DNA from: a virus
IMG/VR virus record: IMGVR_UViG_3300027810_000791
Location: 1 to 40,828 of that record
Length of the DNA stretch: 40,828 bases
Reading direction: 5' to 3' (one strand)
The translations under genes were made by a program, and so were the position numbers. The notes beneath the pieces were generated by a model. The model worked only from the letters and a program-made list of their open reading frames with translations, ran no database searches and was not told where the DNA came from. Positions 4,453 through 40,828 of this stretch are shown here, in pieces (position 1 is the stretch's first letter; each line of letters begins with the position of its first letter).

Positions 4453-6453
4453 ATGGCAGATAAATTTGAAAGTCCTAAAGGAGGAAAGAAGAAAACACCT
4501 TATGTTGATCAGTACGGAGAAGATCTAACAGCTGAAGCTAGAGAAGGAAATCTTGATCCTATAATTGGAAGAGAAAAGGAAGTTTATAGAATATGTCAAA
4601 TTCTATCAAGACGTAAGAAAAATAATCCTATTATATTAGGAGATCCTGGTGTTGGTAAAACTGCACTGGTAGAAGCAATAGCGCAAAGAATTGTTGATAA
4701 AAAAGTTGCACGAACTCTTTTAAATAAAAGAATAGTTTCAATTAATATTTCAAATATAGTAGCAGGTACTAAATACCGTGGTGAATTTGAAGAAAGAATG
4801 AAATTTATTGTAGATGAATTAAAAGGCAATAAAGACATTATCGTCTTCATAGATGAGTTACATACAATAGTAGGTGCAGGTGGTGTTAGCGGTTCTCTAG
4901 ATGCCTCCAACATTCTTAAACCAGCACTTGCAAGAGGACAGGTTCAATGTATAGGCGCAACTACACTTGATGAGTATAGAGAAAATATTGAAACTGATGG
5001 TGCTTTAACTCGTAGATTCCAGGAAGTATTTATAGATCCTCCAAGTGAAGAAGACACTATCGAAATACTGCAAAGAATAAAAGACAACTATGAAGAATAT
5101 CATGCAGTTGAATATACTGATGAAGCGCTGGAAGCATGTGTGACATTATCTACAAGATATATTACAACTAGAGAATTACCTGATAAAGCGATTGACTTAA
5201 TGGATGAAGCAGGTGCTAAAGTACATTTATCTGAAATCAAAGTACCTATTCATATTAAGAAAGCCGAAGACGAGGCAGACGCTATGAGTTTAGAAAAACT
5301 CAAGGCTGTCGAAGAACAAGATTACGAATTAGCTGCCTCATGTAGAGATAAAGAACTTCAACACAGAAAAAACATTGAAGGTAAAATCAAGGCATGGGAA
5401 AACTCTTTAAGAATCAAAAAGAAAAAAGTTACTTACGAAGACATTGCTGAAACTATTTCAAATGCAACTGGAATCCCTGTTACTAGAATGACAGGTGATG
5501 AAAGTAAAATCATAGTTGAAATGGAAAAAGAACTTAAGAAAATGATTATTGGACAAGATCAAGCAGTAGACGCACTCTCTAAGGTAATTAAAAGATCAAG
5601 AACTGGTGTATCATCTGGAAAGAAACCAATTGGCTCATTCATGTTCCTGGGCCCAACTGGTGTTGGTAAAACAGAAACAGTTAAGGCGATTACTAATTAC
5701 TATTTCGGATCAGAAGATCACTTAGTTAGAATTGATATGAGTGAATATATGGAAAAGTTCGCAGTATCAAGATTAATAGGTTCTCCTCCGGGATATGTTG
5801 GACATGAAGAAGGTGGTCAATTAACCGAAGCAGTGAGACGTAAACCTTATTCAGTTATTCTTTTTGATGAAATTGAAAAAGCCCATCCCGACGTATTCAA
5901 TACCCTGTTACAGGTTTTAGATGAGGGTAGATTAACTGATTCTCTAGGAAGAACTGTAGACTTCACTAATACTATTATTATTATGACATCGAATGTAGGT
6001 GCAAAGAAAATAAGTGAATTTGGAATGGGTATCGGATTTGAAACTAAAAGAGATGGAATTGCAAGTAGAAAGGCACATACTGAAGCTATTATTTCTAAAG
6101 AGCTTAAGAATAAATTTGCACCTGAATTTTTAAACAGACTTGATGATGTGGTTTTATTTGATCAACTTAAACATGAAGATATTTTACAAATAGTAGATAT
6201 CGAAATTAACCACCTAATCACAAGAATGACAGGTCAGAAATATAACATCAAAGTTACTAAAACTGCAAAGGAATTTTTAGCAGATGCTGGATATGATCCA
6301 GACTATGGTGCAAGGCCCTTGAAAAGAGCAGTTCAAACATATATTGAAGATCTGTTGGCAGATTCAATTATAACAGGAGATATTAAACAAGATGAAAAAA
6401 TACACACAATAACGCACTTAAAGAACGAAGATAAACTTTCTCTTAAAAGGTAG
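4453..6453 (+). CDS. ClpC/ClpA-like AAA+ unfoldase without N-domain
   Basis: A Hsp100 protein with two AAA+ modules. First module: Walker A GDPGVGKT (63-70), pore loop KYRG (107-110), Walker B IIVFIDE (129-135), arginine finger near R187-R188. A UVR-like helical hairpin (about 280-310, EEQDYELAASCRDKE) links it to the second module: Walker A GPTGVGKT (400-407), pore loop GYVG (447-450), Walker B VILFDE (468-473), and GARPLKR (619-625). IGF at 527-529 sits where ClpA and ClpC carry the loop that docks on ClpP; ClpB lacks this. The usual ~150-residue N-terminal Clp domain is missing, leaving about 25 residues. With ClpP encoded 2.1 kb downstream, it probably forms a phage protease. UVR points to ClpC rather than ClpA. 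Confidence 0.93.
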   Translation: MADKFESPKGGKKKTPYVDQYGEDLTAEAREGNLDPIIGREKEVYRICQILSRRKKNNPIILGDPGVGKTALVEAIAQRIVDKKVARTLLNKRIVSINISNIVAGTKYRGEFEERMKFIVDELKGNKDIIVFIDELHTIVGAGGVSGSLDASNILKPALARGQVQCIGATTLDEYRENIETDGALTRRFQEVFIDPPSEEDTIEILQRIKDNYEEYHAVEYTDEALEACVTLSTRYITTRELPDKAIDLMDEAGAKVHLSEIKVPIHIKKAEDEADAMSLEKLKAVEEQDYELAASCRDKELQHRKNIEGKIKAWENSLRIKKKKVTYEDIAETISNATGIPVTRMTGDESKIIVEMEKELKKMIIGQDQAVDALSKVIKRSRTGVSSGKKPIGSFMFLGPTGVGKTETVKAITNYYFGSEDHLVRIDMSEYMEKFAVSRLIGSPPGYVGHEEGGQLTEAVRRKPYSVILFDEIEKAHPDVFNTLLQVLDEGRLTDSLGRTVDFTNTIIIMTSNVGAKKISEFGMGIGFETKRDGIASRKAHTEAIISKELKNKFAPEFLNRLDDVVLFDQLKHEDILQIVDIEINHLITRMTGQKYNIKVTKTAKEFLADAGYDPDYGARPLKRAVQTYIEDLLADSIITGDIKQDEKIHTITHLKNEDKLSLKR

Positions 6454-8569: not shown

Positions 8570-9238
8570 ATGAACTACGGAAAAGAATTTGAAAAGTACG
8601 CAAAGAGTGATCATGGAGTATCGGGTTTAAATATGCATTATGCAAAGAAACAACTTGAAAACTCGTTGACTCCTTATATTTTAGAAGAAAGAGAATTAAG
8701 AGCCACTCAGATGGACATATTTTCTAGATTGATGATGGATAGATTACTATGGGTTGCGGGACCTGTTAATGACAATATGTCTACAATAGTTCAAGCTCAA
8801 TTAATGTTTTTAGATTCAAATGGAGGAACAGATATTACAATGCATATTGATTCTCCAGGAGGTTCTGTTAAATCTGGACTTTCAATGGTCGATGTAATGG
8901 ATTACATTAAATCAGATATTAAAACGGTGAACACTGGAATGGCCGCTTCGATGGGATCAGTATTATTAGGTGCAGGAACTAAAGGTAAGAGAAGTTCATT
9001 GAAACACTCTACTACGATGCTACACCAATCCTCCGGAGGATTCAGTGGAAATATACAAGATGCTGAAATAGATTGGAAAAACTGGCAAGATGTGAACAAA
9101 GAATTATTCGTATTGTTAGCAGAGTACTGTGGTAAAAAACCAGAAGAAGTAATGAAAGATGCTACTAGAGATTTCTGGTTAAATGCAGAAGAAGCTAAGG
9201 CATATGGAATTATTGACGAAATAATCGGAAGACCTTAA
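8570..9238 (+). CDS. ClpP-like serine protease
   Basis: A ClpP (peptidase S14) homologue. The catalytic triad is intact: Ser127 in GMAASMGSVLL, His152 in TMLHQSSGG, and Asp201 in RDFWLNAEEA. The SPGGSV loop (95-100) and oligomer helix are also present. The N-terminus is about 30 residues longer than in bacterial ClpP and shows no obvious propeptide site. Some phages use S14 proteases for head maturation, but this protein resembles housekeeping ClpP, and a ClpC-like partner with an IGF loop lies upstream, so a regulated cytosolic protease is the better reading. Start chosen at the only upstream ATG, after AATACAATAAT. Confidence 0.92.
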   Translation: MNYGKEFEKYAKSDHGVSGLNMHYAKKQLENSLTPYILEERELRATQMDIFSRLMMDRLLWVAGPVNDNMSTIVQAQLMFLDSNGGTDITMHIDSPGGSVKSGLSMVDVMDYIKSDIKTVNTGMAASMGSVLLGAGTKGKRSSLKHSTTMLHQSSGGFSGNIQDAEIDWKNWQDVNKELFVLLAEYCGKKPEEVMKDATRDFWLNAEEAKAYGIIDEIIGRP

Positions 9239-11894: not shown

Positions 11895-13814
11895 ATGGCA
11901 CAAATTCGTTCAAAACAAATTTCTGACTTTTTAAGTTCAATTCAATGGGCTAATGTAGTACAAGCAGACAACGTTAAAATTGCAAACGTTTATGACGTAA
12001 AGCAACAATTTGACGTAGTTGACGCTTCGGTAAATTCTTTAGAATCTTATATCTCAACTGAGGTAGTTTCTTTAGAAGTTATTGATGCTGGTTTAGCTGC
12101 AGACATTCAAACTGAAAAAGACAGAATTGACGCAATGTTATCTTTATCTACTACAGATTCAGATTCATTCAAAGAAATCGTAGACTTAATTGCTTCGGTT
12201 GACACAGAAAACGATCAGGCATTTGCTGGTCACGTTCTAGAAATTAACGCTTCTGTTGATTCTTTAGAAGCACAAATCTCTACTGAGATTTCAACTACTA
12301 ATACAGAAGTTACTGCTTTACAAGGGAAATCAGCTAATACTGATTCTGCTTTAGAAGATGAAATCGCAAGAGCTACTGGTAGAGAAAATGAAATTGAAGC
12401 TGCTTTACAAGCTGAGATCAATACTACTAATTTAGAAGTAGATGCTTTAGATGCATCTGTAAACTCTTTAGAGCTTATTGACGCTGATTTACAATCTCAG
12501 TTAAACTCTGAAATTGCTACTACTAACGCTGAACAAGATGCTCAAGACGCATCTATCGATTCTTTAGAAGGAAATGTTTCTTCTATCGATGTAAGATTAG
12601 GTAATGTATCTGGTGACTTAGTTGGATCTGTTGATTCTTTAGAAGTTGCTTTAGCTGCTGAAATTTCTGCAACTAATGTAGATGTTAATGACCTAGGTGA
12701 AGCTATCAATGCTGAAGCTACAAGAGCTGGACAATCTGAGGATGCTATCGCTGAAGCTTTAGCTGCTGAGATTTCTGCTACTAACGCTGATTTCGTATCT
12801 ATTGACACGAGAGTATCTTTAGACGAAAATGCTTTAGCTGCTGAAATTGCTGAAACTGCAATAGAACAAGCTGCTCAAGACGCATCTATTAATTCTTTAG
12901 AAGTTGTTGATGGTACTTTATCTGCTAGAATTGAATCTGAAAAAGATAGAATTGACGCAATGTTATCTTTATCTACTGCAGATGCAGATTCATTTAAAGA
13001 AATCGTAGATTTAATTGGTTCAGTTGATACAACAAACGATCAAGCATTTGCTGGTCACGTTCTAGAAATTAACTCTTCTGTTGATTCTTTAGAAGGAAAT
13101 GTTTCTTCTATCGACGTAAGATTAGGAGAAGTATCTGGTGACTTAGTTGGATCTGTTGATTCTTTAGAAGTTGCTTTAACTGCTGAAGTTTCTGCAACTA
13201 ACGCTGATGTTCTTGCTTTAGAAAATGCTTTATCTGCTGAAATCGCTGCTACTAACACTGATGTTACATCTATTGACACGAGAGTATCTTTAGACGAAAA
13301 TGCTTTAGCTGCTGAAATTGCTGCAACTGACGCTGATTTCGTACTTGATAGAGCTTCTATCGATTCTTTAGAAGTTGCTTTAGCTGCTGAGATTTCTGCT
13401 ACTAACGCTGATTTCACATCTATTGACACGAGAGTATCTTTAGACGAAAATGCTTTAACTGCTGAAATCACTAGAGCTGGTTCTGTTGAAGCTGTTTTAT
13501 CTGCTGCACTTTCTGCTGAGATAGCAACTACTGGTACTGAGCAAGTTGCACAGGATGCTAAAATAGTTTCTTTAGAATCTGTTGTTGCTGCCGGAGCAAG
13601 ATACCAAACTCAAACAGCTGCTTTCGTATCTAATGATATATTCCAAGTTTCTCAAGGATTCCTCTTTGGTCAAGCTGACGATTTATCTGTATACGTTAAC
13701 GGTGTATTTGTAGATTTCATCTCTCCTGACGGTATGACTTTTGACTTTACTGGTTTATTACAGTATAGAGTTGAAGCTTCTGACAAGGTGACTGTTCAAG
13801 GTATATTAGCATAA
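11895..13814 (+). CDS. Coiled-coil tail fibre protein
   Basis: A long fibrous virion protein of 639 residues. The first 45 residues (MAQIRSKQISDFLSSIQWAN) look like the attachment head seen in phage fibres. From about residue 50 to 560 there are near-perfect repeats built on SLEVALAAEISATNAD and SIDTRVSLDENALAAEI, a heptad pattern expected to form a trimeric coiled coil. A longer unit (SEKDRIDAMLSLST ... DSFKEIVDLI) occurs twice, about 276 residues apart. The C-terminal ~70 residues (DLSVYVNGVFVDFIS) form the beta module shared with neighbouring fibres. I use the ATG at 11895; an in-frame GTG at 11868 would add nine unlikely residues. Confidence 0.82.
   Translation: MAQIRSKQISDFLSSIQWANVVQADNVKIANVYDVKQQFDVVDASVNSLESYISTEVVSLEVIDAGLAADIQTEKDRIDAMLSLSTTDSDSFKEIVDLIASVDTENDQAFAGHVLEINASVDSLEAQISTEISTTNTEVTALQGKSANTDSALEDEIARATGRENEIEAALQAEINTTNLEVDALDASVNSLELIDADLQSQLNSEIATTNAEQDAQDASIDSLEGNVSSIDVRLGNVSGDLVGSVDSLEVALAAEISATNVDVNDLGEAINAEATRAGQSEDAIAEALAAEISATNADFVSIDTRVSLDENALAAEIAETAIEQAAQDASINSLEVVDGTLSARIESEKDRIDAMLSLSTADADSFKEIVDLIGSVDTTNDQAFAGHVLEINSSVDSLEGNVSSIDVRLGEVSGDLVGSVDSLEVALTAEVSATNADVLALENALSAEIAATNTDVTSIDTRVSLDENALAAEIAATDADFVLDRASIDSLEVALAAEISATNADFTSIDTRVSLDENALTAEITRAGSVEAVLSAALSAEIATTGTEQVAQDAKIVSLESVVAAGARYQTQTAAFVSNDIFQVSQGFLFGQADDLSVYVNGVFVDFISPDGMTFDFTGLLQYRVEASDKVTVQGILA
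12030..13530 (+). repeat. Tandem coding repeats of the coiled-coil fibre
   Basis: DNA-level repeats within the fibre gene, for example TTCTTTAGAAGTTGCTTTAG and ATTGACACGAGAGTATCTTT in several copies. They also create spurious long frames on the opposite strand. Confidence 0.8.
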
Positions 13815-16819: not shown

Positions 16820-22768
<5,949 letters not shown>

Positions 22769-26251: not shown

Positions 26252-27205
26252 ATGAATACTCCAATTAAATCATTTACACAGTTTATTAGCGAAAAGCTTA
26301 ATGAGCAAACAGATCTATTCAAAGTATATTTAGCAATAGATCCTGACAGTGGACACAGATGGTGGAGTTATAAAGGTTTCGCAGCAGACAATTTCTTTAT
26401 TCAAATCACACTTGATAATTATAAAGATATTGACATCAATAAAGACTATCCTATTCTTACATATAACTCAGCTGTAGTTGAAAAATTAATAGAGGAGAAG
26501 TTAGTCAAAAAAGAGAATGTATATAATAGACCTGAATTTATCAAACAATCTGGCTCAAAAGCAGAATTTCACAAGATAGTAGATGGAGATGAAAACATAC
26601 CTAAAACATTCCACTCCGAGAAAGAAGCTCTAGATATAGGATTTCCTATAATTGCAAAACCAGCAGAAGGTCATTCAGGTATAGGTATACAGATATTTAA
26701 GAATAAAGAAGAATGGGATAAAGCAGATCATTCTAAATTTGATGTTTATTCTGAATTCATAGATAAAAAATCCGAACATAGGCTTATTAATTTTAAAGGA
26801 ACTCCTTTCTTTTGGATGGAAAGAGAACCTATGAATGATAAGGCAAAATCAGGTAAAGGTAAAGGAGATGAAGAAATGAGTTTCAAATACATCAAGCATG
26901 ATATTTCAAAGTTACCTTCTAAATTCAATACGCTTGTTGAGAAGTTTTGTAAAATGTTCAGCGATCTACCATACATATGCTTTGACATAATGGAAGACAT
27001 GGATGGAAAGCTTTATATTATTGAAAGCAATTCACAGCCCGGAGTTCCCTATGATTCTACCGTACAGATATACAGACAGTTGTTTAATGATTTCTATGGA
27101 AGAGAAGTAGACAAAGATACTAATACTAAATTAATAAAACTTTCAAAGGATCTAGATGCTAAAACATTAGACACTGATAGTAAAAGATTCGAAATAAGAA
27201 AATAA
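26252..27205 (+). CDS. ATP-grasp enzyme with capsid-targeting-like N-terminus
   Basis: An ATP-grasp ligase. FPIIAKPAEGHSGIGI (131-146) supplies the ATP-binding Lys136 and glycine loop; YICFDIMEDMDGKLYIIESN (241-260) supplies Asp245, Glu258 and Asn260 for Mg-ATP; SQPGVPYDST follows. The family joins an acid to an amine or thiol through an acyl phosphate; the substrate cannot be told. The first 18 residues (MNTPIKSFTQFISEKLNE) look like the T4 capsid-targeting peptide (MKTYQEFIAEA) with I-x-E and L-x-E protease sites, so the enzyme may be packaged in the head and injected. The C-terminal 40 residues are charged and probably flexible. Confidence 0.82.
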   Translation: MNTPIKSFTQFISEKLNEQTDLFKVYLAIDPDSGHRWWSYKGFAADNFFIQITLDNYKDIDINKDYPILTYNSAVVEKLIEEKLVKKENVYNRPEFIKQSGSKAEFHKIVDGDENIPKTFHSEKEALDIGFPIIAKPAEGHSGIGIQIFKNKEEWDKADHSKFDVYSEFIDKKSEHRLINFKGTPFFWMEREPMNDKAKSGKGKGDEEMSFKYIKHDISKLPSKFNTLVEKFCKMFSDLPYICFDIMEDMDGKLYIIESNSQPGVPYDSTVQIYRQLFNDFYGREVDKDTNTKLIKLSKDLDAKTLDTDSKRFEIRK

Positions 27206-36502: not shown

Positions 36503-36527
36503 CTAAATAAATATAATATTGTCACAC

Positions 36528-37067
36528 ATGAAATTTGTACATACATTTGAAGAGTGGAACGAAGTTTCACCCGAGTTAACGGCACATATTGCCGAAGGAT
36601 TAAATTTAACTAATTCATTCTTTAGATTAGGATCAGATGCATACTCTGCATTATTTGAGGAAGTAAAGCAATATTGGGATAAGAACAATATTATTTTAAA
36701 AGGACCTTCAGGATGGATGGCTAAAAACCTAGAAATAGGAAAAGCAGCAGTATACACTCCAAGGGGAGGTAATCAAATTAAAGTAAAGCTAGATTCTCCC
36801 GACAGAGGAGGAAAGAAAAAGTTTATAGTTTATCGCAATTCCGGAAGAACTGATAAAGAAGGAAACATCGTTGCAAAAAAAGTAGAATGGGGAGATCCTA
36901 GTTCAACCATAAAGAATGACGATCCCGGAAGAGCAGCTAATTTCTGGGCAAGGCATGGATGTGACAAGGCAGCGAAGATGGATCCTATGAAACCTGGATT
37001 TTGGGCATGTTACTCGAGCGTGATGTTTTCAAAACAATTAGGTCTTAAATCTGATCAACCTTGGTAA
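36528..37067 (+). CDS. Phage protein with capsid-targeting-like N-terminus, 179 aa
   Basis: Function unknown. The N-terminus MKFVHTFEEWNEVSPE resembles the capsid-targeting peptide of T4 internal proteins. The central part has a helix (FRLGSDAYSALFEEVKQYW) and PSGWMAKNLEIGKAAVYTPR. The C-terminal domain has a distinctive pattern: VEWGDPSSTIKNDDPGRAANF, then WARHGCDKAAKMDP and GFWACY. I associate a G-D-P ... D-P-x-R ... ARHxCD ... W-x-C pattern with packaged phage proteins. I start at ATG 36528; a TTG at 36519 would mask the targeting-like end. It may be a head-internal protein. Confidence 0.73.
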   Translation: MKFVHTFEEWNEVSPELTAHIAEGLNLTNSFFRLGSDAYSALFEEVKQYWDKNNIILKGPSGWMAKNLEIGKAAVYTPRGGNQIKVKLDSPDRGGKKKFIVYRNSGRTDKEGNIVAKKVEWGDPSSTIKNDDPGRAANFWARHGCDKAAKMDPMKPGFWACYSSVMFSKQLGLKSDQPW

Positions 37068-37126: not shown

Positions 37127-37966
37127 ATGGTAGTGTATAAAACAACAAATAAATTAAATGGTAAAATCTATATAGGTAAAGATGAGTCAAATAACCCATC
37201 GTATATAGGTTCCGGCGTCATTCTTAAAAAAGCAATCAATAAATACGGTAAAGATAATTTTATAAAGGAAATACTTGAGGAGTGCAATTCTCGTGAATTG
37301 TTGAATGATAGAGAAATATATTGGATTGATAAATATAAATCAACTGATCACACTATAGGATATAATATAGCAGAAGGAGGAAATGGAGGTAACACATACT
37401 TTGGCAAAACTGATTCTGAATTAATAGAAATTAAATTAAAGATTAGCAATTCACTTAAAAACAGGGTATTTACTGAAGATCATCGTAATAAATTATCAGA
37501 GTCTGCATCTAAAAGAAAAGGAAATAAACCATGTAAGTTTAAAGGCCAAAAAATGGAAGATTATTTGGGTGATGAATATTCAAATGAAATAAAGAATAAG
37601 ATTAGAAATAGCCTTAAATCGTACTATAAAGAGGGCATGCCCGAAGAGCATAGATTAAAAATATCAGCCTCACTGAAAGGTAATAAATTAGGACCTATGA
37701 GTGACGAACATAAAAACAACTTAGCCAAATCATTTAAGAAAAGAGATGATATTAAGAGAGAGAAAACAATACAAGGGTATATTAGATCTCTTGATTCTTT
37801 CTTAAACGAAGGAATTGATAAATCTAATTATGACGAAGCAAAAAAGATATATAGGCGTGCTAAATATAAAGGATTAGACTTATCTAAATACGAAGAGATG
37901 GTTAAACAATTTAAAATAATTTCAAGTGAAAGAAGATCAGAAGCAAACAGAAATAGATATAAGTGA
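37127..37966 (+). CDS. GIY-YIG homing endonuclease
   Basis: A free-standing homing endonuclease. The GIY-YIG nuclease domain covers residues 1-85: VVYKTTNKLNGKIYIGKD (2-19), NKYGKDNFIKEILEE (38-52), and NDREIYWIDKY (60-70) with catalytic Glu63. Repeated NUMOD3-type DNA-binding motifs follow (FGKTDSELIEIKLKISNSLK, DHRNKLSESASKRKGNKP, EEHRLKISASLKGNK, DEHKNNLAKSFKKR). It sits between two putative packaged-protein genes and disrupts neither visibly. GATATATA at 37115-37122 lies just four bases before the ATG. Typical mobile gene. Confidence 0.93.
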   Translation: MVVYKTTNKLNGKIYIGKDESNNPSYIGSGVILKKAINKYGKDNFIKEILEECNSRELLNDREIYWIDKYKSTDHTIGYNIAEGGNGGNTYFGKTDSELIEIKLKISNSLKNRVFTEDHRNKLSESASKRKGNKPCKFKGQKMEDYLGDEYSNEIKNKIRNSLKSYYKEGMPEEHRLKISASLKGNKLGPMSDEHKNNLAKSFKKRDDIKREKTIQGYIRSLDSFLNEGIDKSNYDEAKKIYRRAKYKGLDLSKYEEMVKQFKIISSERRSEANRNRYK

Positions 37967-37970
37967 ATTA

Positions 37971-38315
37971 ATGGTAAATAAAGACTGTAAATGCGAAACA
38001 TGTAAATGTGGCAAAGAATCTTTCGATGAAATGATTCAGCATATAGATGATCAAACTAAGCCATTTAAAGAGACTATTATATCTGATAATGAAATTATTA
38101 GAGAATTTATCCCGGGCCAACCTCCTCATCTTTTCAAATGGCACTTCGACGGAGAAGACAGGGTGATAGAATCTATCGAGGAAAATGATTGGAAATTCCA
38201 ATTCGACAATAAGATACCCATTCCATTAAAGGGATATATAGAAATAGAAGCCGGAGAATATCATAGAATCATTCAAGGTACCACTCCTCTAAAATTAAAG
38301 ATAACATTAAAATAA
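37971..38315 (+). CDS. Cys-cluster hypothetical protein, 114 aa
   Basis: Not recognised. A compact cysteine cluster, CKCETCKCG (residues 6-14), stands at the N-terminus and could bind zinc or another metal. The rest is beta-rich (PHLFKWHFDGEDRVIESI, GYIEIEAGEYHRII). I start at ATG 37971, four bases after the endonuclease stop; a longer frame from 37926 would overlap that gene by 41 bases. Its TAA overlaps the next ATG (TAATG). Confidence 0.7.
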   Translation: MVNKDCKCETCKCGKESFDEMIQHIDDQTKPFKETIISDNEIIREFIPGQPPHLFKWHFDGEDRVIESIEENDWKFQFDNKIPIPLKGYIEIEAGEYHRIIQGTTPLKLKITLK

Positions 38316-38965
38316 TGAAAGATACTCAAACATTTGAAGAATTCCTTAACGAAAATATTTCGTTTGATAAAAAAGGTATTCAAGCTAAATTAGAAGACAA
38401 GCTTAGAATTGCTAAGATCGCGATCAAGAAGTGGGGAAAGATGTACAAGCCACATAAAAAGGATGTTAAAAAAGCAATAGAATCTGGTAAATTACCTAGT
38501 TATAAAAAACCTTTAATGGTTCAAGGTGATGAAAAGCAAGACAGCTACGATATATTCGAAGGAAGAAATGCTGTTAAATTAGCAGAGAAGATTTCTAAAG
38601 TTATTAAGAAATATAAGAAATATGAAGTTGATCAATCTTCAACTGGTGCAGCTGCCGGATGGTCTGGAACAATGAGATCTACGATAGGTGGTACTATCGA
38701 AGGAAGATCAAATTTTAATCCAGGTGGTGGTAGAAGTTTCTTAATCGCTGTAACATGTGGTAGTGGAATAGATTCTAAGATTAAAGATAAAATGTTCCAA
38801 GAAATATATGAACTTATGTTTGTATTAGATCAGTATAACTCATCAGATGGTGGAGTAATGTTTGATTATAGCGAAGGTACAAACTATGACACAATTGGAT
38901 TAACTAATAGCTCTTACTCATTGAGTAACTCGCGACAATTAATAGATATAATGAACAACCATTAA
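38315..38965 (+). CDS. Probable packaged phage protein, 216 aa
   Basis: Function unknown. The first residues MKDTQTFEEFLNENISFD closely match the capsid-targeting peptide layout (F-x-x-F with L-x-E at 11-13). A very basic region follows (KIAIKKWGKMYKPHKKDVKK, about 33-52), then a Gly/Ser-rich centre (STGAAAGWSGTMRSTIGG) and an ordered C-terminal domain (FQEIYELMFVLDQYNSSDGG). A basic protein with such a leader fits an internal head protein that coats or follows DNA. Coupled to the previous gene by TAATG and followed one base after its stop by the large polyprotein-like gene. Confidence 0.75.
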   Translation: MKDTQTFEEFLNENISFDKKGIQAKLEDKLRIAKIAIKKWGKMYKPHKKDVKKAIESGKLPSYKKPLMVQGDEKQDSYDIFEGRNAVKLAEKISKVIKKYKKYEVDQSSTGAAAGWSGTMRSTIGGTIEGRSNFNPGGGRSFLIAVTCGSGIDSKIKDKMFQEIYELMFVLDQYNSSDGGVMFDYSEGTNYDTIGLTNSSYSLSNSRQLIDIMNNH

Positions 38966-38966
38966 T

Positions 38967-40828
38967 ATGAAAAATCAAGAACAAACCAACGAAGGAAGTA
39001 GAAGAGATCCTGAATCAATTAGAAAGGAATACAAGGAACTTAAAAAAGCATCAATCAGTTATTTAAGAACTGAATGGAGTAGAAGCTTTAGAGTAGGAGA
39101 TCCTAAGGGTACAGACAAAACTGGACTTATAAGTGATATATTAAGAGCAAGGCATGGTAATAAACATGTTGACGCTGCCTTTGAATCAGAGATCACCGAA
39201 ATTAGACGTTCTAGTGTATCAGGTACCATGTCAGGTTCTGTTTATTCTTTGGAAGATAGAAAATATGAATTAAAGAAAGATGTAAAGGGTGCTAGGATTG
39301 GAGACTTTATAAATGTAACTCTTCCGAAGGGAACAATCATCTATAATTTACCAGGTGGTCTTTTCGCAGATCACTTCTCATTAAAATCTAGATATACTAC
39401 ACCATACGGCAATGGACCTAAGTGGTTAAGTCAGTCATGGGGTCAAGGAGTAAGCATTCGACAAATGCCAGAAACACTATCATCTATTGAAAAGAATTCT
39501 AAAGTACTAGAATCAGCAATCACTGAAAAGAGAGAAGATGTTGGTAAATACAACACTGTTAAAAAAGTAATTGCTAAATTAGGTAGAAGACCCTCAGAAC
39601 AAGATCTTGCATCATTTATTAATAAAAACTATTATGATGTTACAGAAGTAGAACGAGGAGATAATGATCCAAGTGCCGATGACAAGATTGCAGACTTAGT
39701 AGGATTTTACAAGTTTGATATTGATGATTGGGAAACTGCATGGGAAGATGCTCAAAATGAATCAGCAGTTATTGAAAGTGGAATGTCAGATATTCACATG
39801 TTTGCAAATGATGCTAAGAACATTAATGATTTTATCAAAATGTTCTTTAAAGAATTTGGTGATAAAGTTAAAAAAACAGCAGATACTATTGACTTAGCAA
39901 AAGAATTGTATACTAGCATGATCGATGAATCAGCAGTTACTGAAGAAGTTGTATATAATAGTAGTAATACAAAACCAGAGGCTGCTAAAAAAGCAACAAA
40001 GGAATTTGGAAAACTATTACCTAAAGCAAATAAAGGAGTTGAACCTTATGTATTTGCAGTAATTAAAACTAAAGCTAGAAATTATAGATTAGCTATTAAG
40101 TCTGGATCTTACGTTGCACATGAATTTATGTCAGGTCTTAAGGAAGATGGTATATTAACAGCAGATATAGTAAAGAAAGCAGTTGCTAATGTTATTAAAT
40201 TAAATCCAGAGGAATTCAATGAATCAGTAGTTACTGAAGCTAAATTTAAGGCAGGTGATAAATGGCAATGGAAAACAAAGTCTGACTCCAAGGTTGTAAA
40301 AATAATAAGAGTCGAATCAAACGGAGATATTATTGCAAAAGAAGATGGAAAATCACAAAAATTCATTGTCAGAGATGCTGATAAGTATTTAACTAAAATA
40401 ATTACTGAAGCAGCTAAGATTGAAACTGAAAGATATGTAAGATCTCATGGTAAGAAACCAAGAGGATATGGTGGATGGATGTTTTCATACAATCGAGATG
40501 GATCTGATGAGTGGCAAATTCCAAAAGGAATGGAATGGCCGGATGCTCAGAAATGGGCTAAGAAGAAAGCAAAGGAAGATGGCGAAGATTATGTTTATGT
40601 AATGGAATCAGTAGTTACTGAAGCATTAGCATCTGGTTCTAAAATAGAAAAGAATTTAAACAAGGCGTTAAAGTCAAATATTAATATGTTTGGAGATAAT
40701 AATGAAACTATTAAGGTTTTAGATACTCCAGTTAGAATTGAACGTAGCCAATACGATAAAGAAATGAATGGAAGATCTAAGAATTTTGGAGCTTCTATTA
40801 TGTATATGTATGGATCTGTAACTAACGA
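38967..40828 (+). CDS. Large polyprotein-like phage protein, 3' end beyond window
   Basis: Open from ATG 38967 to the right edge, at least 620 residues and no stop. It begins MKNQEQTNEGSRRDPESIRK. Five copies of an ES(A/V)(V/I)(T/I)E linker divide it: LESAITE (ends 39527), NESAVIE (39776), DESAVTE (39944), NESVVTE (40238) and MESVVTE (40622), with a weaker IITEA ending 40409. Each fits the (hydrophobic)-x-E site of T4-type prohead proteases. Between them are distinct modules, including GRRPSEQDLASFINKNYYDV, the SH3-like KFKAGDKWQWKTKSDSKVVK and GYGGWMFSYNRDGSDEWQIP. It may be a head-packaged polyprotein cut during maturation. No enzymatic motif recognised. Confidence 0.82.
   Translation, partial: MKNQEQTNEGSRRDPESIRKEYKELKKASISYLRTEWSRSFRVGDPKGTDKTGLISDILRARHGNKHVDAAFESEITEIRRSSVSGTMSGSVYSLEDRKYELKKDVKGARIGDFINVTLPKGTIIYNLPGGLFADHFSLKSRYTTPYGNGPKWLSQSWGQGVSIRQMPETLSSIEKNSKVLESAITEKREDVGKYNTVKKVIAKLGRRPSEQDLASFINKNYYDVTEVERGDNDPSADDKIADLVGFYKFDIDDWETAWEDAQNESAVIESGMSDIHMFANDAKNINDFIKMFFKEFGDKVKKTADTIDLAKELYTSMIDESAVTEEVVYNSSNTKPEAAKKATKEFGKLLPKANKGVEPYVFAVIKTKARNYRLAIKSGSYVAHEFMSGLKEDGILTADIVKKAVANVIKLNPEEFNESVVTEAKFKAGDKWQWKTKSDSKVVKIIRVESNGDIIAKEDGKSQKFIVRDADKYLTKIITEAAKIETERYVRSHGKKPRGYGGWMFSYNRDGSDEWQIPKGMEWPDAQKWAKKKAKEDGEDYVYVMESVVTEALASGSKIEKNLNKALKSNINMFGDNNETIKVLDTPVRIERSQYDKEMNGRSKNFGASIMYMYGSVTN

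Follow-up and report, generated by a model that had tools for sequence, protein, structure and literature searches.

A phage gene of linker-separated modules: a probable polyprotein of internal head proteins

Introduction

The DNA analysed here (the window: 40 828 nucleotides, positions 1 to 40,828 of IMG/VR virus record IMGVR_UViG_3300027810_000791) ends in a gene in which near-identical hexapeptides separate stretches of differing length and sequence. Is its product a single protein held together by spacers, or a chain made to be cut, and if it is cut, where do the pieces go? Precedents exist for each part of the second answer. The head proteases of T4 and of phiKZ-type phages cleave after Glu (PMC5694885, PMC9026906), and the T4 capsid-targeting leader, after whose Glu gp21 cuts, can by itself direct foreign proteins into the head (PMC9026906, PMC5694885). 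The internal proteins so delivered in T4 are diverse defence proteins that share nothing but the capsid-targeting sequence; they stay with the DNA and are injected, and one of them, IPI, blocks a restriction enzyme (PMC3012670).

Results

The gene and its linkers

The open reading frame (ORF) at 38967-40826 (+; 620 aa) lies last in the window, whose end cuts it off. Its complete form was found in the 94-kb contig IMGVR_UViG_3300002154_000004 (L002), in which 11.8 kb differ from the window only by two N's; judged by this identity, L002 and the window are the same phage, of whose larger genome the window forms one end. The complete polyprotein has 1163 aa and contains the linker ES-x-[VI]-x-E 12 times. 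L128, from another assembly, matches L002 to 99.9% over 8 kb, so the gene is not an assembly artefact.

Six linkers, ES[AVE][VI][TI]E, lie in the window ORF (residues 73-78, 182-187, 265-270, 321-326, 419-424 and 547-552), with distances of 109, 83, 56, 98 and 128 between their ends; shuffles of the protein gave a mean of 0.05 such motifs and a maximum of 2 (20,000 trials). The first-pass annotation, made from the letters of the window, had reported near-identical linkers at spacings of 83, 56, 98 and 128 between unrelated modules. These spacings are exact, one further linker (ESEITE) lies upstream, and no similarity among the window modules was detected. A weaker site, KIITE (residues 477-481), divides the 128-residue interval. 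Another linker-bearing ORF of the same phage (L117) lies elsewhere on its contig. The gene and its modules are as follows.

38967..40826 (+), polyprotein gene, 5' 620 codons; continues about 1.6 kb past the window
38967..39200 (+), M1, residues 1-78, linker ESEITE at 39183-39200; relative in L058 with 59% identity
39201..39527 (+), M2, residues 79-187, linker ESAITE at 39510-39527; right after a leader in L004/L076, internal in L068
39528..39776 (+), M3, residues 188-270, linker ESAVIE at 39759-39776; the most reused module, with eight differing upstream contexts, every one ending in Glu
39777..39944 (+), M4, residues 271-326, linker ESAVTE at 39927-39944; after M3 in L003 too, elsewhere behind other sites
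39945..40238 (+), M5, residues 327-424, linker ESVVTE at 40221-40238; no relative outside the window phage among the compared loci
40239..40409 (+), M6, residues 425-481, ends in the weaker KIITE at 40395-40409; 58% identical to a module of L081 bounded by KLNE and KKVTE
40410..40622 (+), M7, residues 482-552, linker ESVVTE at 40605-40622; no relative outside the window phage among the compared loci
40623..40826 (+), M8, first half; whole in L002 (residues 553-696)

No function could be assigned to the window modules from Pfam, PHROGs or NCBIfam; matches to AvrL567-A, Mer2 and Redoxin were under the cut-offs and were taken as chance. When 54 polyproteins and their relatives were compared with the same collections, only DUF5824, DUF6329, phrog_3041, phrog_1987 and phrog_5922 were found, besides some weak matches. 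A module of 43 aa in the L002 polyprotein (residues 825-867) carries two C-x-x-C pairs (CLECDE...CPSC) and has the look of a zinc ribbon. The AlphaFold model of the window polyprotein is poor (mean pLDDT 39.8); its confidence falls at the first linkers, as spacers would give, a weak sign in a poor model. The model of M14, a module past the window end, is also poor, and the fold search gave no significant match.

Neighbouring genes

Three genes upstream of the polyprotein gene were compared with known phages and with the related loci.

36519..37067 (+), phrog_7595; related to a gene of the Kyanoviridae cytidyltransferase cluster (HTVC008M, Melnitz)
37926..38315 (+), related to Melnitz 13005-13274 of the same cluster (E 2e-12, pairwise)
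38315..38965 (+), with the leader MKDTQTFEEFLNE; its relatives are stand-alone leader genes in L074, L044 and L113 and an internal module in L041

That the preceding genes carry capsid-targeting-like leaders, as had been claimed, is true in part: such starts were seen at 38315 and at 26252. The latter gene (26252-27205, +; first residues MNTPIKSFTQFISE, leader-like) encodes an ATP-grasp type enzyme, possibly a packaged protein ligase. The gene next downstream of the polyprotein in L002 also has a capsid-targeting-like leader, MAKLKSFEQFLSE.

Elsewhere in the window, a GIY-YIG homing endonuclease gene (37127-37966, +) lies between two neighbours of the polyprotein gene, and the 1982-aa product of the ORF at 16820-22768 (+), which is rich in collagen-type repeats and has an S74 endosialidase chaperone at its C terminus, is probably a tail fibre. 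An ATP-dependent protease gene (4453-6453, +) lies near a ClpP gene (8570-9238, +). The ClpP-like product was weighed as a candidate for the processing protease and rejected, as it is a Clp protease (PF00574) encoded near the ATP-dependent protease gene.

Reuse of modules in related phages

A scan of IMG/VR with the window protein gave 11 further loci. A degenerate DNA pattern for ESVVTEA, in which third codon positions were left free, then gave many more; at least 55 distinct ORFs with two or more linkers were collected in all, a count biased, like the preference for the residue after the cut, by the Ala-type codon that the pattern demands after the linker. The 45 linkers from loci found by module homology are free of this bias.

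Window modules recur in these relatives in other orders, and such reuse extends over dozens of related uncultured phages. Of 28 distinct contexts in which homology places a module start, 26 have Glu as the preceding residue (background 9.5%, p ~1e-24) and 26 have a hydrophobic residue at position -3; because the bounds of the window modules were first drawn from the linkers, this test is only partly independent of the motif. In 22.8% of cases a BLAST match begins no more than 8 residues from a linker in each of the two partners, versus 0.7% for random positions. As far as these sequences allow a judgement, the modules move between phages along with their linkers.

Among annotated phages no relative of the window polyprotein was found at E<0.01, and none of the polyproteins of L012 and L003. 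The huge phages LR756500, LR745206 and LR756501, a Lak phage and Tenacibaculum phage PTm1, whose gp23 is closest, have leaders in some cases, and their head regions contain no such polyprotein near gp23.

The folded part of M3 also contains a V-T-E (DVTE, residues 224-227), conserved in every copy. It is presumably left uncut, so that the short motif alone would be insufficient as a cut signal.

Leaders in the place of linkers

In the relatives the leader takes the T4-type capsid-targeting form F-x-x-F-[IVL]-x-E, and reused modules were found to have either a linker or such a leader upstream. M2 comes after the leader FEEFIAE in L004 and L076; M3 is preceded by FSGFLNE, AVELVNE or YIKTIEE in some proteins and by linkers in others; M14 is a single gene in L074, with the leader FEQFIQEVKLELNE. 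The relative of M1 in L058 has FEQFVSE on both flanks, and the second copy occupies the place of ESEITE in the window. M1, M2, M3 and M14 were thus seen across leader, linker or single-leader-gene settings, and by this evidence leader and linker are interchangeable forms of the same signal.

The strict leader pattern was present in 18 of 42 complete polyproteins; its frequency was 13% among the remaining ORFs of those loci and 1.3% among shuffled sequences. Looser forms occur in many more polyproteins. The window polyprotein starts with MKNQEQTNEGSRRD and lacks the usual kind of N-terminal leader. Internal or C-terminal leader-like motifs, its linkers, or the leader-bearing product of the gene directly upstream could bring it into the head. 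Its C terminus in L002 (13405-13489, ~1.6 kb past the window end) is a leader-type motif, ITDFNAFIIE-SKIYSK.

These exchanges bear on a plainer account, by which the modules are one multidomain protein acting in the cell and ES-x-[VI]-x-E is a spacer or binding motif that is never cut. Multidomain phage proteins that need no cutting are known. A plain spacer, however, need not hold a final Glu with a hydrophobic residue two positions before it; a T4-type leader motif would not be expected to replace the linker at the same position, as FEQFVSE does for ESEITE; and modules also stand alone behind leaders. An uncut protein is accordingly rated as quite improbable.

Codon usage of the linkers

The two Val codons of the linker are unusually uniform: GTA-GTT was used in 87 of the 101 ESVV[TN]E linkers listed, whereas among 132 Val-Val pairs in other parts of these proteins it was used in 57 (Fisher p ~1e-11). 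Since the third positions of the DNA pattern were free, this uniformity is not an artefact of the search. A DNA dyad, TCAGTA-GT-TACTGA, was dropped as the cause, as the codons stay fixed though a change of Thr to Asn breaks the dyad. Sequences of the T4 late promoter type (TATAAATA) were not above chance, and none lies at the polyprotein gene.

The fixed synonymous codons could mean that the repeat is mainly a DNA-level element, such as a site of recombination or cassette insertion, with only secondary meaning in the protein. Against this, the same boundaries are marked by FEEFIAE, KLNE, LVIE and TVSE, which differ in sequence; the persistence of the codon pattern through the Thr to Asn change is better read as copying of linkers with modules; and no recombinase or flanking repeat was linked to the repeat. 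A mainly DNA-level role is scarcely credible. The fixed codons point to copying of linkers together with modules, or to recombination at linkers.

Linkage to head assembly

The order of genes in L005 is portal (PF07230), a leader-bearing polyprotein with M3, an S77 prohead protease fused to a scaffold-like part, and Gp23; L012 shares it as far as the protease. In both, the last module of the M3 polyprotein is acidic. In eight other genomes this module is a stand-alone gene with a leader-like start, between portal and protease (E 1e-11 to 1e-35), and in position and acidity it corresponds to T4 gp67. S77 and Gp23 were present in 10 of 11 linker-bearing records longer than 65 kb, among the matches listed; any T4-like phage is expected to carry them. 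The major capsid proteins of the group mostly start with MANLINE-[AS]EIR, possibly a further cut site.

The prohead protease, portal-region and capsid genes of the window phage itself were not found in its 94-kb contig, which is incomplete. The proposed search for its protease outside the window had no success on this contig; S77 is present in the relatives.

Association with core and protease genes also suits a different fate for the pieces: the polyprotein would be a scaffold or core component, cut into small peptides that leave the head, and its modules structural filler and not cargo. The T4 core proteins, such as gp22, gp67 and gp68, are cut to fragments that exit the head (PMC5694885). 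The chains of L005 and L012 end in the acidic core-position module and adjoin the protease/scaffold gene, and the polyprotein of L007 (4774-6744; G005) has three copies of an acidic stretch shared with the scaffold part of the S77 protein that its genome encodes, a weak match obtained with composition correction off. However, the module sets differ greatly among relatives, and pieces of 5-18 kDa are big for escape; many modules, among them M3, M14 and DUF5824, have conserved cores and the look of domains that fold separately, and conservation and shuffling of whole units is not what one would expect of filler. Removal of the pieces as filler is held to be unlikely.

Discussion

Proposed mechanism

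The gene is likely to encode a head-cargo polyprotein that is cut after its linkers by a gp21-type (S77) protease, with release of small internal head proteins. The first-pass annotation had read it as a polyprotein with the linkers as cut sites, and comparison supports both well, through the module boundaries, the equivalence of leader and linker, and the fusion in relatives to the core-position gene beside S77. Under this mechanism the linker consensus E-S-V-[VI]-[TN]-E would be the cleavage signal of the T4 gp21-type (S77) prohead protease. Modules, mostly of 5-18 kDa, would be strung in one precursor that is built into the prohead core, which in most relatives it would enter by an N-terminal T4-type leader. 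During head maturation the protease would cut after the Glu of the leader and of each linker, and each freed module would remain in the head as an internal protein of its own, packaged alongside the DNA and probably injected. Delivery of the modules into the head is strongly suggested by the sequence comparisons; we infer cleavage, packaging and injection of the pieces. By likeness to the T4 internal proteins, the modules are probably early effectors.

A wider proposal, to which slightly less than an even chance is given, is that of a cassette system in T4-like phages: an exchangeable library of small head-delivered effectors kept as protease-cleaved modules, in which the linker would be both cut site and recombination seam. 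A single in-frame recombination would then be enough to add an effector to the injected payload, with no need of a further promoter or leader.

If the mechanism holds, a large group of uncultured phages has made T4-like internal proteins modular, with one gene, often one leader, many cargoes and a tag between them. The linker would then be a search handle for hundreds of small proteins that are probable head-delivered early factors, likely to be rich in counter-defence and host-takeover functions, and the arrangement would suggest how a single gene could supply a phage head with several proteins.

Comparison with known systems

Each component has a precedent, namely T4 targeting leaders, gp21-type cleavage or multidomain polyvalent proteins. 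Their combination in a shuffled chain, with small modules joined by a standard head-protease linker, was not met in the open-access papers searched.

One parallel, which gives indirect support from cultured phages, is the Kyanoviridae cytidyltransferase cluster (HTVC008M, Melnitz, cyanophages), which holds relatives of two window neighbours and of the DUF5824 module (L008, L050, L068). It consists mostly of separate genes or short fusions, without a standard ESVVTE linker; these clusters were considered as an earlier description of the polyprotein and rejected, as the genes are related but the standard linker is absent. The cytidyltransferase has been detected in virions of cyanophages S-CREM2 and S-SCSM1, in S-CREM2 together with nearby hypothetical proteins, and the authors of the S-CREM2 study remarked that such virion proteins could be carry-over (PMC10665884, PMC9602691).

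Polyvalent proteins of phages and conjugative elements (Iyer et al. 2017, PMC5512222) resemble the chains described here in being very variable and multidomain, in being predicted to be packaged and injected, and in that processing has been proposed for them; several unrelated domains per polypeptide, varying between relatives, were found here also. They carry known enzymatic domains, often with a peptidase of their own, and no standard head-protease linker has been described for them (PMC5512222), whereas the modules here match almost no known family: the described repertoire (ADP-ribosyltransferase, methylase-helicase, zincin peptidase, ArdC-N etc.) was absent from the 54 polyproteins and relatives scanned.

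The inner-body and ejection proteins of phiKZ and SPN3US are similar in being cut after Glu by an S77-like protease, some of their propeptides at multiple sites (PMC5694885, PMC9026906). Those sites lie inside propeptides that are removed, whereas the sites here would lie between modules that are retained.

The closest likeness, together with that to the polyvalent proteins, is to T4 IPI, IPII, IPIII and Alt (PMC3012670, PMC9026906), small proteins with varied bodies whose short N-terminal leader is removed after hydrophobic-x-Glu; the leader form is the same here. T4 internal proteins have a gene and a leader each and give one mature protein per gene, whereas the complete gene described here holds at least 12 linker-separated stretches, many modules in one chain with copies of the putative cut site inside it.
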